Below are positions 7,550 to 17,231 of a stretch of DNA of 64,000 nucleotides, piece after piece (position 1 is the first letter of the stretch; the number at the start of each line of letters is the position of its first letter). Made by a program: the position numbers and the translations under genes. This DNA is from Clostridia bacterium (lineage in GTDB: Bacteria; Bacillota; Clostridia; Christensenellales; Aristaeellaceae), in assembly GCA_017447185.1 (NCBI GenBank), contig JAFSOC010000041.1, positions 1 to 64,000 on the forward strand, in the 5' to 3' direction. Under the pieces are notes generated by a model that saw nothing but the letters and a program-made list of their open reading frames with translations, was not told where the DNA came from and did no database searches.

Positions 7550-7557
7550 CCGCGGAT

Positions 7558-7586
7558 TTGCAGACACTGAAAGATTATGGTATAAT
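7558..7586 (+). promoter_or_regulatory. Promoter of the CotH-DUF4956-VTC operon
   Basis: TTGCAG (7558-7563), a 17-base spacer, and a perfect TATAAT (7581-7586). It starts 9 bases after the helicase stop and 42 bases separate the -10 box from the next ATG. This is the only good promoter seen before the six-gene run ending at 16118. Confidence 0.8.
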
Positions 7587-7627
7587 CTTCAAGTTGGTTG
7601 TTAGCTAAATTGAAAGGAGGGAAGCCG

Positions 7628-10600
7628 ATGGACAGACAGGACAATGGATACCAGCCCCAGGGACGCCGTTCGGCTTCCCGGGCCACAAAGCTCCGGCGCA
7701 GGAAGCAGCGGATGAACCTGCTGTTGCTGGCAGGCGCCATCGCGGCCATTCTCTGGCTGGTGTTTGTGCTGCCGGTATGGCTGGGCATGCCGTCTCCGTT
7801 CACGGAGCTGAGCCGTGCCGCGAAGACCATCGGCACCGACTCCGGCAATGTGGAAAGCGAACACGCGCTGTCCACCGGATACGAGGGACTCAAGATCAGC
7901 GAGATCATGAGTTCCAACCAATCTTCCGTCACGGACGAGACCGGCGGATATCCGGACTGGATCGAGATCTGGAACGATTCCAACCATGAAGTGAACCTGA
8001 AGGGCCTGGGCCTGAGCGACGACGGAACCAGCGTCAAATTCCTGTTCCCGGCGGTTACGCTGGAAGCGCAGGGCCGCGTGGTCGTCTTCTGCGACAACAG
8101 GAACCAGGCTGTCACCAATATGCCTTTCCATGCAAAATTCAAGTTGAGCAGTCTGGGCGAGACGGTCTACCTGTATGACCCGAACGCCTACCTGATTGAC
8201 AGCTGCAAATATCCGATCATGGCCAGCGACGACAGCTGGTCCCTGACGGCGGACGGATTCAAGAGCGTCACCTGGTTCAGCCCATGGTTCGAGAACACCG
8301 AGGAAGGCCACCGGAAGTACCGGGAAAGCATCACCGTATCGGACGGCTCCGTGCTGATCAACGAGGTGATGGCGGATCCGCTGACCGGCCTCCGGGACGA
8401 CGAGGATGAGCTGGTGGACTGGATTGAGCTGTACAATACGACGGACCGGGATATCCAGCTGAACATGTACGCCCTGAGCGACAATGAAAAACGGCCGCTG
8501 AAATGGCGGTTCCCGGACGGCGCGGTGATCCCGGCGCACGGATACTACCTGGTGATGTGCAGCGGGAAAGACCGGGCGGATACGAAGATGAACGGTGTGT
8601 ATCACACCAACTTCCGCATCAGCGCGGAGAACGAGACGATCATCCTGTGCGACAGCCAGGGCCACGTGATGGACCGCGTGATGATCGACAACCTGCCGCA
8701 GGATTGCAGCTGGGGCCGGAATGAGAACAACCAGATGCAGGTTTTCCAGACGCCGACGCCGACGCTGCCGAACAATGTGAGCGGATTCAACCAGATGGAC
8801 ATGAACCTGCGCGCCATGAACAAAACCGGCGTATGGATCAGCGAGGTCATGGCCAGCAACCATTCCGTGGACACCTACAACGGCGCCGCGCGGACGGACT
8901 GGATTGAACTATACAACTCCACTACAGCGACGGTGGACCTTTCCGGCTGGGGCCTGAGCGACAACCTCAGCCGTGGGCGTAAATGGCAGTTCCCGCAGGG
9001 GACGACCATCGGCCCGGGAGAATACAAGGTGATCCTGTGCGACAAGGATACCGCAAAGAATTCCGCCGCGCAGCCGCACACGAATTTCAAGATCAGCCGG
9101 CTGCAACAGGAAATCATTACCCTGACGGATCCGACGGGACGCGTGCTGGACAAGGTGATCCTCCCGGAACTGAAGACAGACGTATCCTACGGCCGGACCC
9201 TCGGAATGGGCGGGCTTTTTTATTATGATTCGCCGACACCATTCAAGCAGAACGGAACCGGATTCACCGGATATGCGGAAAAACCGCAGTTCAGCATCGC
9301 ACCGGGGCAGTATTCCTCCTCGCAGTATGTAGAGATCTCCATTCCGGAAGGAACGCAGGTTTTCTACACCGTGGACGGATCCACCCCGACCCAGAGCAGC
9401 ACCGCCTACAACGGCGAGCGGCTGGAGCTGAACTTCACCACAGTGATCCGGGCACGGGCCTTCGGCACCGGGCTGATGAAGCCCAGCGACACGATCACGG
9501 GAACCTACTTCATCAACGCGTTCCACGCTCTGCCGCTGGTGTCCATCGTGACGGACCCGAAGAACCTGTGGGACAAGGACTACGGTATGCTGACCATCGG
9601 CGACAACGCGATCCGCGAAGCCGGCAAGCTGCCCTTCAAGAACACGGTGTACCGGAAGGTCAAGGACCAGGGCATCAAGTATGAATGCTCGATCGAAATC
9701 TATGACGACGCCGGGGAGCTGCTGATGAGCCAGAACGGCGAGGTGGGCCTGATGGGCGACTTCTCGCTGGATATGCCGCAGAAGAGCTTCAAGTTCCGGG
9801 CGAGGAGCCTGTACGGCAGCAAGACCTTTAACGCGAAGCTGTTCCCGGACCGCGACTACACGGAATACAAGGGATTCGTGCTGCGCAACAGCGGCAACGA
9901 CTGCATGTGGACGCGGCTGCAGGACGGATTCCAGCAGCACCTGATGGACCTGTGCAGGGACAAGCTGTCGGAGATCACGGACGCGTGGGTTGCGCACCAG
10001 GCATGGAAGCCCTACGCCGTCTACCTGAACGGCCAGTACTGGGGCCACATGAACCTTCGTGAACGCACGGATAAATACATGATCGCCCAGTTCGAAGGCA
10101 TGACCCTAGATGAAGCGGACCAGATTGACCTGCTGCAGGGCAGCGGCAGCGTCAAGAGCGGCAGCAACAAGGCATTCAAGGCGATGCTGAAGAAGATCAA
10201 GGCCGGGGAGCCCGCGAAGAACGCGGAGGACCTGCAATACATCCTGGACAACGTGGATGTGGACAACCTGTTCATGTACTTGGGCTTTGAAATGTTCTTC
10301 GGCAACAGCGATATCGGTAACACCCGCTTCTACAATACGAACCAGCCGGGAAGCAAGTGGAAATGGGTGCTGTACGACGTGGACTACGGCTTGTACAACT
10401 CCAAGTTCAACAGCCCCTGGAGCTACACGAAATCCACCGGTATGGGCCAGAAGAACATCAACAATACGATCTTCCTGAAGCTGCTGAGCGTGCCGGAATA
10501 CAAGGACCGGTACCTGACGATCTACGGAACGATCTTCAAGAAACTGACCACCGATTTCATGATCCAGACGCTGAACGACATGGTCAAGATCATCGAACCG

Positions 10601-10846
10601 GAAATGATGGTCCACTGGACCCGCTGGGGACAGGAAAACGACAAGATGGTTATCGCGGAAGTGCCGACTACGATCGACGGCGCCTACCGCTACTGGGAGA
10701 AGCGCGTGGAGCGCCTGCGGAACGTATGCCGGCTGCGGCCGACCCGCCTGTGGGAGTTCACCCAGGACGCCTTCAACCTGACCAACGCCGAAATGGAAAA
10801 ATACTTCGGGCCGAAGCCGGAAATGCCGCCGGACGCGATCCCGTAA
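7628..10846 (+). CDS. Membrane-anchored lamin-tail / CotH-kinase family protein
   Basis: This 1072-residue protein starts with a basic cytoplasmic tail and one membrane helix (about 37-60), placing the rest outside. Three lamin-tail-like modules start near residues 87, 241 and 401 (KISEIMSSNQ, LINEVMADPL, WISEVMASNH). A chitobiase-type Ig module follows at about 550-625 (QVFYTVDGSTPT). The CotH kinase domain runs from about 634 (LPLVSIVTDPKNLWD) and keeps NGQYWGHMNLRERTDKY and the metal-binding WVLYDVDYG. CotH in Bacillus is an atypical kinase that phosphorylates spore coat proteins; here the substrate is probably a surface protein. The ATG at 7628 follows AAGGAGGGAA. It heads an operon with DUF4956 and VTC genes, a recurrent association. 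Confidence 0.9.
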   Translation: MDRQDNGYQPQGRRSASRATKLRRRKQRMNLLLLAGAIAAILWLVFVLPVWLGMPSPFTELSRAAKTIGTDSGNVESEHALSTGYEGLKISEIMSSNQSSVTDETGGYPDWIEIWNDSNHEVNLKGLGLSDDGTSVKFLFPAVTLEAQGRVVVFCDNRNQAVTNMPFHAKFKLSSLGETVYLYDPNAYLIDSCKYPIMASDDSWSLTADGFKSVTWFSPWFENTEEGHRKYRESITVSDGSVLINEVMADPLTGLRDDEDELVDWIELYNTTDRDIQLNMYALSDNEKRPLKWRFPDGAVIPAHGYYLVMCSGKDRADTKMNGVYHTNFRISAENETIILCDSQGHVMDRVMIDNLPQDCSWGRNENNQMQVFQTPTPTLPNNVSGFNQMDMNLRAMNKTGVWISEVMASNHSVDTYNGAARTDWIELYNSTTATVDLSGWGLSDNLSRGRKWQFPQGTTIGPGEYKVILCDKDTAKNSAAQPHTNFKISRLQQEIITLTDPTGRVLDKVILPELKTDVSYGRTLGMGGLFYYDSPTPFKQNGTGFTGYAEKPQFSIAPGQYSSSQYVEISIPEGTQVFYTVDGSTPTQSSTAYNGERLELNFTTVIRARAFGTGLMKPSDTITGTYFINAFHALPLVSIVTDPKNLWDKDYGMLTIGDNAIREAGKLPFKNTVYRKVKDQGIKYECSIEIYDDAGELLMSQNGEVGLMGDFSLDMPQKSFKFRARSLYGSKTFNAKLFPDRDYTEYKGFVLRNSGNDCMWTRLQDGFQQHLMDLCRDKLSEITDAWVAHQAWKPYAVYLNGQYWGHMNLRERTDKYMIAQFEGMTLDEADQIDLLQGSGSVKSGSNKAFKAMLKKIKAGEPAKNAEDLQYILDNVDVDNLFMYLGFEMFFGNSDIGNTRFYNTNQPGSKWKWVLYDVDYGLYNSKFNSPWSYTKSTGMGQKNINNTIFLKLLSVPEYKDRYLTIYGTIFKKLTTDFMIQTLNDMVKIIEPEMMVHWTRWGQENDKMVIAEVPTTIDGAYRYWEKRVERLRNVCRLRPTRLWEFTQDAFNLTNAEMEKYFGPKPEMPPDAIP

Positions 10847-10892
10847 CAAAGAAACCGGTTATCCAGACGCACAAACATAGGAGGGAACCGAC

Positions 10893-11603
10893 ATGTTTAT
10901 CTCAACCGCACTCGCATCCGGAGCCAGCTCCCTGGTCAAGAACGACTCCAGCCTGAGCTCCTACTTCCTCAGCCAGTTTGAAAACCTGACGCCGTGGAAG
11001 ATCGTAATCGGCCTGGCCGCCGGCGCGCTGGTGGGCCTGATCATCGCCTTTGTGTACAAGCGCTGCTACCGCGGCGTGCTGTACAGCCCGACCTTCGCCA
11101 TGACGCTGATGATGCTGACGCTGATCACCACGCCGGTGGTTATGTGTATCAAGAGCGACATCGCCCTGAGTATGGGTATGGTCGGCGCACTGAGTATTGT
11201 GCGTTTCCGTACGGCCGTGAAGGATCCGATGGATACGGCCTACATGTTCTGGGCACTGACGATGGGCATATTGCTCGGCGCAGAGTTGTTTGTGCACGCC
11301 CTGGCCGTGGTGCTGGGTATCAGCATTATCCTGTTCGTGATGACGTTTGTGCGGTTCCGGAATCCGAACGCCTACCTGCTGGTGGTGCATTATGACGACT
11401 ATGCCGAGCAGGAGATCACCCAGCTGCTGCGCCGCACGGTGAAACAGCGGAAACTGCGCAGCAAGACCGTGACCCGCTCCGGAGCGGAAATGACCGTGGA
11501 AGTGCGGCTGGACAGCAAGCAGGACCTGGTGAGTGCCGTGCTGAACATCGAAGGTGTGCACGATGCCACGCTGGTATCCTGCCAGACGGAAGCGGGACAG
11601 TGA
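10893..11603 (+). CDS. DUF4956 family membrane protein
   Basis: This 236-residue protein has about four membrane helices in residues 30-155 and the DUF4956 hallmark LSIVRFRTAVKDP. A soluble tail of about 70 residues follows, of mixed alpha/beta character, ending LNIEGVHDATLVSC, which resembles an ACT-like regulatory fold. DUF4956 proteins have no assigned activity but are often encoded next to VTC polymerases and CotH kinases, as here. The ATG follows GGAGGGAACCGAC. The VTC gene starts 51 bases downstream. A role as membrane partner of the polymerase is an inference from context only. Confidence 0.88.
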   Translation: MFISTALASGASSLVKNDSSLSSYFLSQFENLTPWKIVIGLAAGALVGLIIAFVYKRCYRGVLYSPTFAMTLMMLTLITTPVVMCIKSDIALSMGMVGALSIVRFRTAVKDPMDTAYMFWALTMGILLGAELFVHALAVVLGISIILFVMTFVRFRNPNAYLLVVHYDDYAEQEITQLLRRTVKQRKLRSKTVTRSGAEMTVEVRLDSKQDLVSAVLNIEGVHDATLVSCQTEAGQ

Positions 11604-11653
11604 TTTGGTTTTTAGTTGTTAGTTTTTAGAAAATAAGGAAAGGGGGAACGCAG

Positions 11654-12367
11654 ATGAACATGAATACGCTGCCTTTGCGGCATGAACTGAAGTACTTCAT
11701 CAACGAGCGGCAGTATTTTGTTCTTTCCGGTATCCTGGACGCTGTGCTCTCCCGCGATCCCAACGGGGACGAATACAACGAATACCATATCCGGTCGCTG
11801 TACTTCGACACGATCTTCAACAACGCGCTGTACGACAAACTGAACGGCGTGCAGAACCGTGACAAGTACCGGATCCGGATTTACAACTTCAGCGACAAGG
11901 TGATCAAGCTGGAGTGCAAGACCAAGGTGGGTACGCTGATCTCCAAGCGGAGCCTGACGATTCCGAAACTGCTGTGCGAACAGCTGATGGCCGGCGACCC
12001 GGCCGGGCTGGAAACCACGCGCAGCGGCCTGCTGAACGATATGTACCGGGAGATGACCGTGAACCTGCTGCGGCCGGTGGTGCTGGTGGACTATGTGCGG
12101 GAAGCCTACCTGCATCCCGCGGAGGAAGTCCGCATCACCTTTGACAAGCAGCTGCGCAGCGGCCTGTACAGCAAGGAACTTTTTGATCCCTACGTACCGA
12201 CGATTCCGCCTTTCGATGACAACGTGATTATCCTGGAAGTCAAATACAACCACGCGCTGCCCACCTATATCCGGGACCTGCTGAGCGAATACTGCCAGGG
12301 GGCGCAGCCGAGCGCCATCAGCAAATACACCTGGTGCAGGCGCTTTGAGGGAATGGGAGAGGAATAA
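11654..12367 (+). CDS. VTC-domain polyphosphate polymerase family protein
   Basis: This 237-residue protein matches the VTC/CYTH-like tunnel fold: amino-terminal RHELKYFI, then IRSLYFDTIF, DKYRIRIYNF, KLECKTKVG, ISKRSLTI and LEVKYNHALP. The alternating basic and acidic residues are those that line the polyphosphate tunnel in yeast Vtc4, which makes polyphosphate from ATP. It has no membrane helix, so the DUF4956 neighbour may hold it at the membrane. Its ATG follows GGAAAGGGGG and the next gene starts 3 bases after its stop, so translation is probably coupled. The actual polymer product is unproven. Confidence 0.88.
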   Translation: MNMNTLPLRHELKYFINERQYFVLSGILDAVLSRDPNGDEYNEYHIRSLYFDTIFNNALYDKLNGVQNRDKYRIRIYNFSDKVIKLECKTKVGTLISKRSLTIPKLLCEQLMAGDPAGLETTRSGLLNDMYREMTVNLLRPVVLVDYVREAYLHPAEEVRITFDKQLRSGLYSKELFDPYVPTIPPFDDNVIILEVKYNHALPTYIRDLLSEYCQGAQPSAISKYTWCRRFEGMGEE

Positions 12368-12370
12368 GCC

Positions 12371-13528
12371 ATGACCGCAAAGCGGAGAACCACCGGAAAA
12401 CTTGCGGCAGCGGCGCTGGTCCTGCTGCTGGCGCTCTCATTCAGCGCGCAGGCGACGGCGGAGAAAGTGATTACGCTGACCTTTGCCGGAGACTGTGTGA
12501 TCGGAAGCGAAGAGCGGAACCACGCGCTGCCGGAATCCTTCGACAGCGCGGCAGAGAAAAACGGATACGATTATTTTTTTGCGAATTTCCGGGACCTGTT
12601 TGCGGCGGATGACTGCACGGTGGTGAACCTGCTGGGCGTGCTGGCCGACACAAACGACGGCGCGATGAAATCCCGGCCGGCCCGTTTCCGCGGGGCGGAG
12701 GAATACGTGAAGATCCTGCAGGCGGGATCGGTGGAAGCTGTTTCGCTGAGCAACAACCACACCAGGGACTATTCCCAGCGGGGACTGGAGAACACCCAGC
12801 ACGTGCTTACGGAAGCCGGGATCGGCTGGACCAGCGAACGGGATTTCTGGATTTTTGAAAAGGACGGAATCCGGATTGCCTTCGTTTCCATCGACTACGG
12901 CGCCTACCAGCGGAGCAGGGACAAGATCCGCTCTGCGCTGCAGACCCTGCGGGACAGCGGCGAAATCAACGCCACGGTGTACCTGATCCACGAAGGAAGG
13001 GAATACCTGCCTACCCACCAGCGGCGGCAGGAGGAATTTGGCGCATACGCGGTGCAGCAGGCCGGGGCGGACCTGGTGATCATGCACCAGGCGCATGTGC
13101 TGCAGGGAATCCGGATCCTGGAGAACCGGGGCATTTTCTATTCCCTGGGGAATTTCGTTTACGGCGGGGACACCACCGTACGGAAGGAAAAGAACGCGGA
13201 CACCAACCTGACCATGGTGGTGCAGGCACGGCTGTACTTCACGGAGGACGGCGCCTGCAAGGGAAGGCAGATTACCCTGTATCCGGCCTGGTCCAGCGGG
13301 ACGGATCCGGAGAACAATTACCAGCCCTGCCGCATGACCGCGAAAGAGGCGGGGGCCGTGCTTGCGGCCGTGCAGGCGGATACGGATTTCCAGCTGCCGG
13401 AAATCCGGACGGATGAAAAGGGATTTGCCTACGTGAAACTGGATTTCCAGGAAGAGGCATCCAAAGCATATTACCCGGAGGACGGACCGGAACCGCCGGC
13501 GCCGCAGCCGGGCCGGGACAGCAGATAA
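12371..13528 (+). CDS. Secreted CapA/PgsA-family metallophosphatase-like protein
   Basis: This 385-residue protein has a signal peptide (about 1-31, ending AQATA before EK). CapA-type motifs are LTFAGDCVIGSE at about 36, SLSNNHTRDYSQRG near 130, LIHEGREY near 203 and GADLVIMHQAHVLQGI near 233, with FYSLGNFVYGG after. The family has a calcineurin-like fold and was named from poly-gamma-glutamate capsule export. The usual HWG.EY is here HEGREY. No CapB or CapC gene is present, so capsule synthesis is not implied. Its start lies 3 bases after the VTC stop. The carboxy end is a proline-rich tail. Confidence 0.85.
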   Translation: MTAKRRTTGKLAAAALVLLLALSFSAQATAEKVITLTFAGDCVIGSEERNHALPESFDSAAEKNGYDYFFANFRDLFAADDCTVVNLLGVLADTNDGAMKSRPARFRGAEEYVKILQAGSVEAVSLSNNHTRDYSQRGLENTQHVLTEAGIGWTSERDFWIFEKDGIRIAFVSIDYGAYQRSRDKIRSALQTLRDSGEINATVYLIHEGREYLPTHQRRQEEFGAYAVQQAGADLVIMHQAHVLQGIRILENRGIFYSLGNFVYGGDTTVRKEKNADTNLTMVVQARLYFTEDGACKGRQITLYPAWSSGTDPENNYQPCRMTAKEAGAVLAAVQADTDFQLPEIRTDEKGFAYVKLDFQEEASKAYYPEDGPEPPAPQPGRDSR

Positions 13529-13557
13529 CCCCGTGAGGGAAATGGAGGAACAGAGAC

Positions 13558-15450
13558 ATGGAAGCATTGATTCCGAAATGGCACCGGGAGCTGGAACTGT
13601 TCAGCGCGATCAAACCGCTGCTGATTCTGGAAGGGAATATCACGGACCAGTACCGTTTTCCGGTGGACGGTTCCGTGCGACAGGACGAGATTATTTCGCT
13701 GAGCCGTTATCTGCAGGCGTATTTCTCGGACGAGGGATATGACCAGGTGATTTTCTACAGCAACCTGCTGGGCTTCGTAAGCCCGTTTGATCCGAGCATG
13801 CTGGAGCGCTACGCGGCATTGACCGGGTCGGAGATCAAGAACGGCGCGATCCCGGCGGAATTCAAGGGCAACGGCGCGGAGACAGCGCCTAATGTGATCC
13901 GCCGCGCCATGAGCCAGCAGCAGGCGGCCACCGTCACCGTGATGGAGATGGCGAGCCACTATATCACCACGCCCGAGCGCATGGACCAGCAGGATGTGAA
14001 CAGCTTCAATATCCTGATGCAGAGCGCCCTGAGCGCTTCCTGGGTGCGTACGGCCCACGGGAAGAAGCAGAACCTGCTGATCCTGCTGGTGAACAAGCTG
14101 AACGACCTGCCGGCATGGTTCTACCTGAACAATCCGGTATGCAAGATCCTGCAGCTGGAAGCGCCGGACCGGGAAGAGCGCAAGCGTATGATGACCGGGA
14201 CGAACTTCGCCTCCTTCTTCTCCGGCACGGTATACCGCCGCGACATGCCGTATTACACGGAGCATGAGGATGAGCTGGAACGGATTAAGGAGAAATTCGT
14301 CGGCCTGACGGAAGGCATGACCTTTACGGAACTGGACGAGATGCGCATGCTGTGCAAGCGGGAGGAAATGCCGATCCGCGACCTGTGCAAGGTGGTGGAC
14401 CTGTACAAGTACGGCATCAAGGAAAACCCCTGGAGCACGCTGAGCGTCAAGAGCCTGAAGACCGCGAAGACGGACTTCGAGAAGCGGATCAAGGGCCAGG
14501 ATACGGCGCTGGAGCGCACGCTGGACGTGGTCAAGCGCGCGGTTACCGGCATGAACGGCCTGAATTCCTCCTCCACGGGCAAACCGAAGGGCGTGCTGTT
14601 CTTCGCGGGCCCGACGGGTACCGGCAAGACCGAGACCGCCAAGGCGCTGGCGGAGAAACTCTTCGGCGATGAGAGTACCTGCATCCGGTTCGACATGAGC
14701 GAATACGGACAGAGCCACTCGGACCAGAAGCTGATGGGCGCACCTCCCGGATATGTGGGTTACGAAGCGGGCGGACAGCTGACAAACGCCGTGAAGAAGA
14801 ATCCCTTCTGTATCCTGTTATTTGATGAAATCGAGAAAGCCCATTCCACGATCCTGGACAAGTTCCTGCAGATCCTGGAAGATGGCCGGATGACGGACGG
14901 ACAGGGGAATACGGTGTATTTCTCCGAAACGATCATCATCTTCACCAGCAACCTGGGCATCTACGTGAAGGACGCCTTCGGAAACCGGGAACCGAACGTA
15001 ACCATGGACATGGAATACAGCGAAGTGCAGGCCCGGGTCCGTTCGGCGATCGAGGACTACTTCAAGCTGGAACTGGGCCGGCCGGAGATCCTGAACCGGA
15101 TTGGCGAGAATATTGTTGTCTTCGACTATATCCGCAAGGAAGCGGCAGACCTTATCCTGAAGAGCCAGGTCAACAAGATCACCGCCAAGCTGCGGGAGCA
15201 GAAGAACATCGAAATTTCCATCGAAGACTTTGCCTACAAGAGCCTGGAGGAAGCAGCGACCTTCGACCTGTCCAACGGCGGCCGGGGCATCGGCAACCAG
15301 GTGGAAAGCCTGGTCATCAACCCGCTGAGCCGGTGGCTGTTTGACCATGAGATCACGGAGAACGCGAAGATCGTGATTGAAGGATTCGAGACGGCGGCCA
15401 ATCCGCCGAGCATCCGCTGCCGCATTGAGGAAGGAGGGAAGGAGGCATGA
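13558..15450 (+). CDS. ClpB-like AAA+ ATPase with degenerate first AAA module
   Basis: This 630-residue protein has a carboxy-terminal AAA_2 module like ClpB D2: Walker A GPTGTGKT at about 350, Walker B LLFDEIEKAH at about 420, EDGRMTDGQGN, TSNLG and the arginine-finger region RPEILNRIGEN, then a ClpB D2-small-like end. Residues 1-270 look like a second AAA fold that has lost the P-loop: LLILEGNITDQY stands where a Walker A should be, and VTVMEMASHY where a Walker B is expected. The ClpB N domain and middle coiled coil are absent. A remodelling role for the operon's membrane proteins is inferred. Its stop overlaps the next gene's ATG by four bases (ATGA). Confidence 0.85.
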   Translation: MEALIPKWHRELELFSAIKPLLILEGNITDQYRFPVDGSVRQDEIISLSRYLQAYFSDEGYDQVIFYSNLLGFVSPFDPSMLERYAALTGSEIKNGAIPAEFKGNGAETAPNVIRRAMSQQQAATVTVMEMASHYITTPERMDQQDVNSFNILMQSALSASWVRTAHGKKQNLLILLVNKLNDLPAWFYLNNPVCKILQLEAPDREERKRMMTGTNFASFFSGTVYRRDMPYYTEHEDELERIKEKFVGLTEGMTFTELDEMRMLCKREEMPIRDLCKVVDLYKYGIKENPWSTLSVKSLKTAKTDFEKRIKGQDTALERTLDVVKRAVTGMNGLNSSSTGKPKGVLFFAGPTGTGKTETAKALAEKLFGDESTCIRFDMSEYGQSHSDQKLMGAPPGYVGYEAGGQLTNAVKKNPFCILLFDEIEKAHSTILDKFLQILEDGRMTDGQGNTVYFSETIIIFTSNLGIYVKDAFGNREPNVTMDMEYSEVQARVRSAIEDYFKLELGRPEILNRIGENIVVFDYIRKEAADLILKSQVNKITAKLREQKNIEISIEDFAYKSLEEAATFDLSNGGRGIGNQVESLVINPLSRWLFDHEITENAKIVIEGFETAANPPSIRCRIEEGGKEA

Positions 15451-16118
15451 GCGAAAACAACAATAACAACAATAACAATACCGGCCGTCCTTCCGAAACC
15501 GAAGAACTGCTGAAAAAGATGCGCGCCATCGCCTCGGACCTGTGGCGCGAGTCGCCGAACGTTTCGGCGGAACCGAAGCCGAAGGCGGAAAAACCGGCCC
15601 GCGTGGTGGTGAAACGCCCGGAAATCGGTATCGACAACCTGTGGATGACCGCGGATGAGACGATTGACTGGACGGATGCGCTGGCGCACGAATATCCTAC
15701 GGACGGGCTGACGAACCTGCGGCTGTGGGCGTTTTACCACAACCAGGCGGAGGCCGTGCTCGCCGGGGACACCAAGGCCTACGCGGAGGTGCTGAAAAAG
15801 GCGAACCCGCTGGGAGAACTGACCGCCTTCGCAGACGGAATCAGCATGCGGGCGCCCGGCGGAGACCGGGTGGAAGCCCAGTTTAAATGCAAAAAGGAAT
15901 ACCTGGACGCAGACGGGAAGAAATACCTGAGCGCCATGGGCGTGCGGATCGCCCGGGACCTGCTGGCCTGCCTGCCCGTGAGCGAAGTAGGCGTGAAGGC
16001 CGTACTGGAGGACAACACCGTCATGGAGGTTACCTATCGCCGCGAAGCGCTGCTGCACCGGAACTTCAGTTTCCTGGATCCGGTGAAGCTGACGGAGGAA
16101 TGTGGCGCGAAATACTGA
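15447..16118 (+). CDS. Conserved operon-end protein of unknown function, poly-Asn start
   Basis: I do not recognise this 223-residue soluble protein. It opens MSEN followed by seven more Asn encoded by mixed AAC/AAT codons, then a Lys/Pro/Glu-rich linker (about 45-60). The body (about 65-215) looks folded, with AFYHNQAEAVLAGD, a helical segment ARDLLACLPVSEVGVKA and a beta-rich end. There is no signal peptide or membrane helix. Its ATG overlaps the ATPase stop (ATGA) behind GGAAGGAGG, so it is translationally coupled and may be an adaptor or substrate for that ATPase. That is inference from position only. Confidence 0.75.
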   Translation: MSENNNNNNNNTGRPSETEELLKKMRAIASDLWRESPNVSAEPKPKAEKPARVVVKRPEIGIDNLWMTADETIDWTDALAHEYPTDGLTNLRLWAFYHNQAEAVLAGDTKAYAEVLKKANPLGELTAFADGISMRAPGGDRVEAQFKCKKEYLDADGKKYLSAMGVRIARDLLACLPVSEVGVKAVLEDNTVMEVTYRREALLHRNFSFLDPVKLTEECGAKY

Positions 16119-16133
16119 CCGGAAGCATAAAAG

Positions 16134-16163
16134 AACCGCCTGTCCCGATGGGGGCAGGCGGTT
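16134..16163. terminator. Bidirectional terminator between the CotH operon and the glycosidase gene
   Basis: AACCGCCTG (16134-16142) pairs with CAGGCGGTT (16155-16163), and the loop adds a CCC/GGG extension. TTTCTG follows on the plus strand and TTCTTTTAT on the minus strand. It sits between two converging genes. Confidence 0.85.
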
Positions 16164-16181
16164 TCTGTACCATTCTGCTTT

Positions 16182-17231
16182 TTACTTTTCAGCGGTGGCG
16201 AAGTACACCAGGTCCCACAGATCCCGGCCCTGGGCGCGGCTCTTCAGGTTCACCTTGCCGTTGTTGCCGGCACCGGGGAAGTAGAGGACGGAGGAAACGC
16301 CGCCATCCAGGTTGTAGGCGAACTGTACACCCTTGGAAACCAGGTAATCCGCGAACTCCGGCATGGACAGGCCGCGGTTGCCGCCGATCTGGCCGGCGCT
16401 GGCAGCGATCAGGTAATGCAGCGGCCCGATCTGGCATAGGGCGATGCGCTGGGCGTCCTTCAGGGCGCGCATATCCATCCAGCTGCCGCCGAGGGCGGGC
16501 TCCCGGTCAACACCCTGGTAATCATAGATGGCTTCGCCGTTTTCCACGAGGATCGGACCGAAGGAGAAGATATCCATGACCTTTTTGCCTTCGAAGGTGT
16601 AGGGATCGTCCAGGTCGCCGGGCTCAGCGGCGTGGATGCCGTGGAAATCACCCCAGGCATCCACAATCAGGAGGTCCATCTTATACTTTCCCTTTTCATC
16701 CAGGGCGCTCTTGATCAGCTTGCCCTGGCGGAAGACCACACCGAAACCGTTCTTTTCGTTCCGGCTGTTGGCACCCCAGGAATCGCCGTCCACGGCGACC
16801 ACGGCGTTCAGCCGCTTTGCCAGGGTGACGATTTTGCCGGCACGCTTGGTGCTGACGAAATCGAAATTGTCATCAAAGGAAGCGGTACGCAGTTGGGAAG
16901 GATCGGAGATCGTAACATCCGCCACCCAGATGTCGGTGTGGGTCCAGCTGCCGTCCGGCCCCTTGTAAACGTCAGTATAGACGGTGGCACGGATGGTGCT
17001 GTCCTCATAGGTGTGCACCGAGTTGCCGTTGGCATCCTTCGTCTGGGAGAAGGCGGAGTTCTTCAACGCCGGGCCGGGCGTAAAGTCAATGGGCAGGGCA
17101 TAGTTCGGCAGATCCGGAACATCCTCGACCTCCACCGTTTCCGCCATCACAGCGGCGGGAACCAGCAGGAGCGCGAGCAGCGCTGCGATCAGGCGTACAG
17201 ACAGACGGTTTCCTTTGAAATGCTTCATCAC
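16182..17231 (-). CDS. Secreted phosphodiester glycosidase (NAGPA-like) family protein
   Basis: This 349-residue protein has a signal peptide (about 1-31, ending AVMA). The NAGPA/DUF2233-type domain shows VVAVDGDSW near residue 145, GFGVVFRQGK, FSFGPILVENG and the family hallmark NLDGGVSSVLYFPG near 310. The mammalian enzyme removes N-acetylglucosamine from a phosphodiester; bacterial members act on exopolysaccharide or wall glycan phosphodiesters. A teichoic-acid-like or exopolysaccharide substrate is plausible. Two ATGs are in tandem (17231 and 17228) behind AAGGAG at somewhat long spacing. It has its own consensus promoter. Confidence 0.85.
   Translation of the reverse strand: MMKHFKGNRLSVRLIAALLALLLVPAAVMAETVEVEDVPDLPNYALPIDFTPGPALKNSAFSQTKDANGNSVHTYEDSTIRATVYTDVYKGPDGSWTHTDIWVADVTISDPSQLRTASFDDNFDFVSTKRAGKIVTLAKRLNAVVAVDGDSWGANSRNEKNGFGVVFRQGKLIKSALDEKGKYKMDLLIVDAWGDFHGIHAAEPGDLDDPYTFEGKKVMDIFSFGPILVENGEAIYDYQGVDREPALGGSWMDMRALKDAQRIALCQIGPLHYLIAASAGQIGGNRGLSMPEFADYLVSKGVQFAYNLDGGVSSVLYFPGAGNNGKVNLKSRAQGRDLWDLVYFATAEK

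Follow-up and report, generated by a model that had tools for sequence, protein, structure and literature searches.

A CotH-DUF4956-VTC gene trio joined to an Hsp100-type ATPase and its neighbour gene in the genus Aristaeella

The window analysed here is a stretch of 64,000 nucleotides of contig JAFSOC010000041.1 from a Clostridia bacterium (assembly GCA_017447185.1), and it was compared with other genomes of its genus, Aristaeella, a group of rumen bacteria. It carries six consecutive open reading frames on the plus strand (7628–16118), encoding a CotH protein, a DUF4956 membrane protein, a VTC-domain protein, a CapA protein, an Hsp100-type ATPase and a protein here called g6 (Table 1). The genes are separated by 46, 50, 3, 29 and −4 bases and are flanked by an SNF2 helicase gene on one side and a convergent phosphodiester-glycosidase gene on the other. 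Five out of six proteins pass the Pfam cut-off: CotH with 105.9 bits against 23.8, VTC with 126 against 23, and DUF4956, PGA_cap and AAA_2 with 50, 133.6 and 166.5 bits, respectively. A first-pass annotation of this DNA had thus named the families correctly, and the short gaps or overlaps that it described are present.

The promoter and terminator of the same annotation also proved real. A consensus scan found the promoter site unremarkable (3 found versus 3.1 expected), although TTTGCA and TATGnTATAAT are invariant across six aligned upstream regions, comprising the window and five close relatives hand-picked from 33 survey loci. Similarly, a terminator scan listed none at the operon end, although folding shows a strong hairpin at 16132–16166 (−32.5 kcal/mol and z −4.5 for the stretch as a whole, none out of 200 shuffles as good). 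A TTG at 7598 was considered as the start of CotH and rejected in favour of the ATG at 7628, which lies behind AAAGGAGGG.

Table 1. Features of the operon, with positions in the window
Feature	Position	Strand	Basis
Promoter: TTTGCA, 18 nt, TATAAT with TG before	7557..7586	+	Consensus scan, 10/12 match; hexamers invariant in 6 aligned upstream regions
CotH protein, 1072 aa	7628..10846	+	Pfam, hydropathy, start-codon analysis
DUF4956 membrane protein	10893..11603	+	Pfam 50 bits, hydropathy
VTC-domain protein, polyphosphate polymerase family, soluble	11654..12367	+	Pfam 126 bits; invariant charged residues in 15 aligned sequences
Secreted CapA / PGA_cap protein, variable-slot occupant	12371..13528	+	Pfam 133.6 bits; signal-like N-terminus
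Hsp100-type ATPase: D1-like half without P-loop, intact ClpB-type D2	13558..15450	+	
g6, soluble protein, family not assigned by Pfam	15447..16118	+	
Terminator hairpin between convergent genes	16132..16166	.	Folding

The ATPase was found in 33 out of 37 genomes of the genus, whole in 30 and as contig-end fragments in three, with an identity of 81–97%; the four genomes without it (G016, G026, G030 and G032) are 54–87% complete. g6 was found in 31 of the 37, and in none of the 24 genomes from other families that this draw included. Neighbourhoods were compared over 39 loci: the window, the 33 survey loci and five further contigs. VTC lies upstream of the ATPase in 37 of these, DUF4956 in 36 and CotH in 34, and g6 follows downstream in 36; every missing neighbour falls at a contig end or, in L082, 3.2 kb from one. 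Gene order is kept through the genus, and the linkage is therefore not a matter of chance.

The slot between VTC and the ATPase is variable and is occupied by secreted proteins of a surface type. It holds CapA in 17 out of 37 loci, a PIG-L type deacetylase in five and a MucBP protein on the other strand in one, and is empty in 14. The CapA of the window is 36–53% identical to those of the survey loci. Pfam was run on one of the PIG-L copies, to which the others are 74–77% identical; these copies (L073, L075, L079, L106 and L107) are of the de-N-acetylase type and have a signal-like N-terminus. The ATPase, DUF4956 and VTC evolve slowly, CotH at an intermediate rate, and g6 and CapA fast. CapA is an exchangeable occupant of the slot and lies outside the core, so the conservation beside CotH, DUF4956 and VTC asked of CapA, the ATPase and the last gene by the first-pass annotation holds for the latter two only. 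We are highly confident of the resulting anatomy, namely a trio, a variable slot and an ATPase-g6 pair.

A scan of named genomes with the N-terminal half of the ATPase yielded 79 loci, which were sorted by identity and neighbourhood into a window type (34), a sister type (28), distant copies (16) and a fragment (1). In the sister type, the ATPase and g6 are adjacent in 26 out of 28 loci, and the remaining two are truncated at contig ends. None of the 28 has CotH, DUF4956 or VTC in the stretch covered, which reaches about 10 kb upstream in 18 of them. VTC is located elsewhere in all 22 sister genomes searched, within a CotH-DUF4956-VTC cluster in 17 of the 19 places fetched and never beside the ATPase; in seven of the 19 the same SNF2 gene lies upstream. 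In two sister genomes (L171 and L172) a PGA_cap-type protein is encoded upstream of VTC, CotH and DUF4956 being outside the stretch covered. The firm result is this modular make-up, with the ATPase-g6 pair standing apart from the trio in one group and joined to it in the other. “Complete machine”, the term first applied to the six genes, was too strong: there is a trio, and a pair that is separate in sister genomes.

A 42-row ATPase tree splits the window and sister types with a support of 99, whereas the matching VTC tree gives 74 only. When distant copies are included (43 rows), the window type has a support of 72 and the sister type one of 89, and L117, a row of the window type, is placed away from the others. 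Among same-family genomes outside the genus, a VTC relative (46–76% identical) is present in 17 out of 17, the ATPase in none and g6 in one; all three of these genomes that were fetched have the trio. The simplest history would be an old trio, a later gain of the ATPase-g6 pair and its insertion behind VTC in the window lineage, the direction of change being suggested by parsimony. The pair standing alone in sister genomes, and a VTC-ATPase slot that changes freely, are what would be expected if the operon were a neighbourhood only, of co-transcribed genes without a joint function. We consider this improbable, as the linkage persists in the genus though CapA, PIG-L and MucBP come and go, and spacing is tight where the slot is empty.

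The CotH protein has an N-terminal membrane anchor, three Lamin-tail domains, a CHB_HEX_C_1/Fn3_assoc region and a C-terminal CotH domain; no solved chain matched it in a single-sequence search. According to hydropathy, the DUF4956 protein has three strong hydrophobic segments followed by a soluble C-terminal part, and it matches MgtC with 13.9 bits, under the MgtC cut-off. In VTC, 15 aligned sequences share the invariant residues E11, K13, K71, R73, R75, E87, K89, K91, R149, R160, E195, K197 and K224, which we take to be the conserved charged residues of the tunnel. By hydropathy, CotH has a single anchor, at its N-terminus, CapA has a signal-like segment, and VTC, the ATPase and g6 have no such segments; CotH and CapA are therefore probably outside the cell, and the other three probably inside. 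A second VTC-DUF4956 pair, in reversed order, is located on contig C1 of the same genome (L053:5406-12849). Its VTC is 29% identical to that of the window and its DUF4956 was assigned by eye; the pair is flanked by genes for a Cthe_2159 carbohydrate-binding protein (upstream) and an NAGPA phosphodiester glycosidase (downstream), and a protein of the tyrosine-phosphatase family is encoded nearby. The gene converging on the window operon (16182–17231, minus strand), with which it has the hairpin in common, is also of the NAGPA type, and relatives of it lie near several surveyed operons.

The ATPase begins directly at D1. Its D2 motifs and aromatic pore loop are intact and of the ClpB type, whereas the first half is without a P-loop in all 43 sequences. 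It falls short of the NCBIfam ClpB equivalog TIGR03346 (261.5 bits against a cut-off of 1232.1). The pattern [LIV]G[FL] of the ClpP-docking loop was found in none of the 43 sequences, and the ATPase would therefore remodel its targets and not degrade them.

g6 has a low-complexity N-terminus and a conserved C-terminal alpha/beta domain. It has no Pfam or NCBIfam match and weakly matches one PHROG (E 0.0024). The domain is related to the tail of a DUF4236 protein (L191:9335-10357), the C-terminal half of which is g6-like (g6 profile E 8.6e-38), whereas g6 is without the DUF4236 domain itself. Among 297 genomes, the g6 profile has a single match outside the two groups, to the tail of a DUF4236 protein from a genome of the same family, and a weak match on a Niallia plasmid is also a DUF4236 protein. 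Text searches of open-licence papers for DUF4956, for DUF4236 and for pairs of the CotH, DUF4956 and VTC domains brought up no title on a link between the ATPase and g6.

Distant copies of the ATPase have other company. Nine out of 16 distant loci place it beside 4Fe-4S single-cluster, FHA, Ser/Thr kinase or PP2C genes, some with DUF4011; seven distant copies (L151, L152, L153, L154, L155, L157 and L161), several of them titled Oscillospiraceae, are without the partner genes searched. An order-level draw gave a distant copy in 5 out of 291 genomes outside the genus, and all four fetched have a 4Fe-4S gene together with a kinase or DUF4011 gene. Further copies are located on Rhizobium, Geminocystis, Caballeronia and Photobacterium plasmids, that of Rhizobium adjoining a 4Fe-4S gene and a large AAA-domain gene; none was found in the phage records searched. 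The Aristaeella lactis plasmid NZ_CP069422.1 (44,127 bases; L167) carries a set of kinase, FHA, 4Fe-4S, AAA, PP2C and kinase genes, and its AAA ATPase has the same two-part make-up as that of the window and is 57% identical to it. Unlike in the window operon, no CotH, DUF4956, VTC or g6 was found on this plasmid. The set adjoins the gene of a DUF4011 protein, whose score against the PADLOC candidate PDC-S37 is 1308 bits, and may be a mobile defence system.

The contexts of the distant and order-level copies and of the A. lactis and Rhizobium plasmids would all suit a rival account in which the ATPase and g6 are an offshoot of a system for phospho-signalling or conflict (Ser/Thr kinase, FHA, PP2C, 4Fe-4S, DUF4011) that moved into the operon and has nothing in common with the trio except the promoter. 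We regard this as somewhat unlikely. Neither the distant ATPase loci nor the A. lactis plasmid gave a match to the g6 profile, and the high identity of the ATPase at this place in the genus suits a housekeeping gene over a mobile one. Furthermore, a PADLOC scan of the six window proteins touched only the AAA core of the ATPase and left the other five unmatched, whereas a known anti-phage system is called on a match over most of the protein.

The interpretation that we tentatively favour, as possible though rather short of probable, is that of a surface-polymer modification operon that has recruited an unfoldase-adaptor pair. The trio would modify or regulate a cell-surface polymer, with CotH acting outside as a kinase, DUF4956 in the membrane and the VTC enzyme at its inner face. 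g6 may serve as adaptor or substrate of the ATPase, which would hold protein with both rings but hydrolyse ATP in D2 alone, and would pull or unfold a member of the inner-face complex and thereby switch its assembly or activity. The arrangement suggests a motor that remodels surface machinery.

Several observations weigh against this interpretation. A VTC relative occurs without the ATPase in all 17 same-family genomes outside the genus, and the ATPase is therefore dispensable for the trio. Given how widespread VTC is in the family, finding it in every sister genome may reflect mere ancestry and is therefore weak evidence for a functional link; the joining of the pair to the trio is the stronger hint. 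The D1-like fold of the first half comes from a predicted model, as does the two-ring fold of the whole (rmsd 8–14 Å over two domains). The D1-like half has no Pfam match, its best E among PDB profiles is 0.19, and profile comparison with D1 of the ClpC of the same genome, using a single-sequence template, gave an hhalign probability of 0.4%. g6 has no confident structural match.

A bolder proposal, which we consider unlikely, is that the ATPase-g6 pair constitutes a new subfamily of the Hsp100 type with a pseudo-ATPase gripping ring, an active ring and a dedicated adaptor, which would have come from phospho-signalling loci to act as an energy-driven switch of an outward CotH phosphorylation/polyphosphate system at the cell surface.

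The first-pass annotation had proposed that polyphosphate made by VTC and DUF4956 at the inner face feeds or controls outward phosphorylation, with the ATPase assembling the system. This speculation agrees with the VTC family match and the invariant charged residues, but CotH kinases use ATP in vitro. The genome of the window has a PPK1-type and a Ppx-type match, and a PPK1-type match is present in 20 out of 23 same-genus genomes searched (not in G017, G018 and G021); in most of these genomes, VTC is therefore accompanied by another polyphosphate-type enzyme. A soluble VTC with a membrane DUF4956 resembles a split version of the eukaryotic VTC complex, in which synthesis and membrane translocation are coupled (PMC9911596). 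In Streptococcus intermedius, however, deletion of the polymerase gene SIR_1593 is reported to have left cells that still aggregated and had Pel (PMC12345266). Taken together, the polyphosphate model appears improbable.

The trio recurs in Gram-positives, and the published cases that we found are Pel loci. In Aristaeella it occurs mostly without Pel, and in one lineage it has been joined to an unfoldase-adaptor pair, which lies elsewhere in sister genomes. The trio thereby gains a concrete candidate partner, and there is a sequenced isolate of a relative (A. lactis) as well as a natural comparison of split and joined states. A further outcome is a subfamily of Hsp100 ATPases whose first half has no P-loop and which links kinase/FHA/PP2C loci and surface operons.

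Among known systems, the ATPase compares with ClpB and ClpC in its D2 motifs, its pore loop and, by the predicted model, its two-ring fold, and differs in the first half without a P-loop, the start at D1 and the lack of a ClpP-type loop. For the trio, the closest comparison is with Gram-positive Pel loci. Genes for CotH, a poly-phosphate polymerase, DUF4956 and DUF4832 adjoin pelDEADAFG in streptococci and clostridia (PMC7112168), and a Clostridium perfringens locus has VTC-domain and CotH genes close together (PMC2879425). In S. intermedius, deletion of SIR_1594 (CotH) led to less Pel and that of SIR_1592 to more, and either deletion brought aggregation in sputum medium down to less than half; PMC12345266 also reports that the syntenic arrangement of the three SIR genes was not found outside Pel loci. 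SIR_1592, there named MgtC-ACT, would correspond to the DUF4956 protein. PelG, by contrast, is mostly absent here: it exceeds the cut-off in two out of 37 same-genus genomes, nearly full length in G007 and as a partial match in G028, with matches below the cut-off in two further genomes and no match in the genome of the window (88.7% complete). The inner order is CotH-DUF4956-VTC, whereas the SIR numbers suggest CotH-polymerase-membrane protein, if they follow gene order. Unlike in the Pel loci, the trio is followed by the ATPase-g6 pair, and the CotH domain is C-terminal, behind Lamin-tail domains. What the operon has in common with the Gram-positive Pel loci, as described in PMC7112168 and PMC12345266, is the same three families together, a secreted CotH and a membrane protein with a soluble tail.

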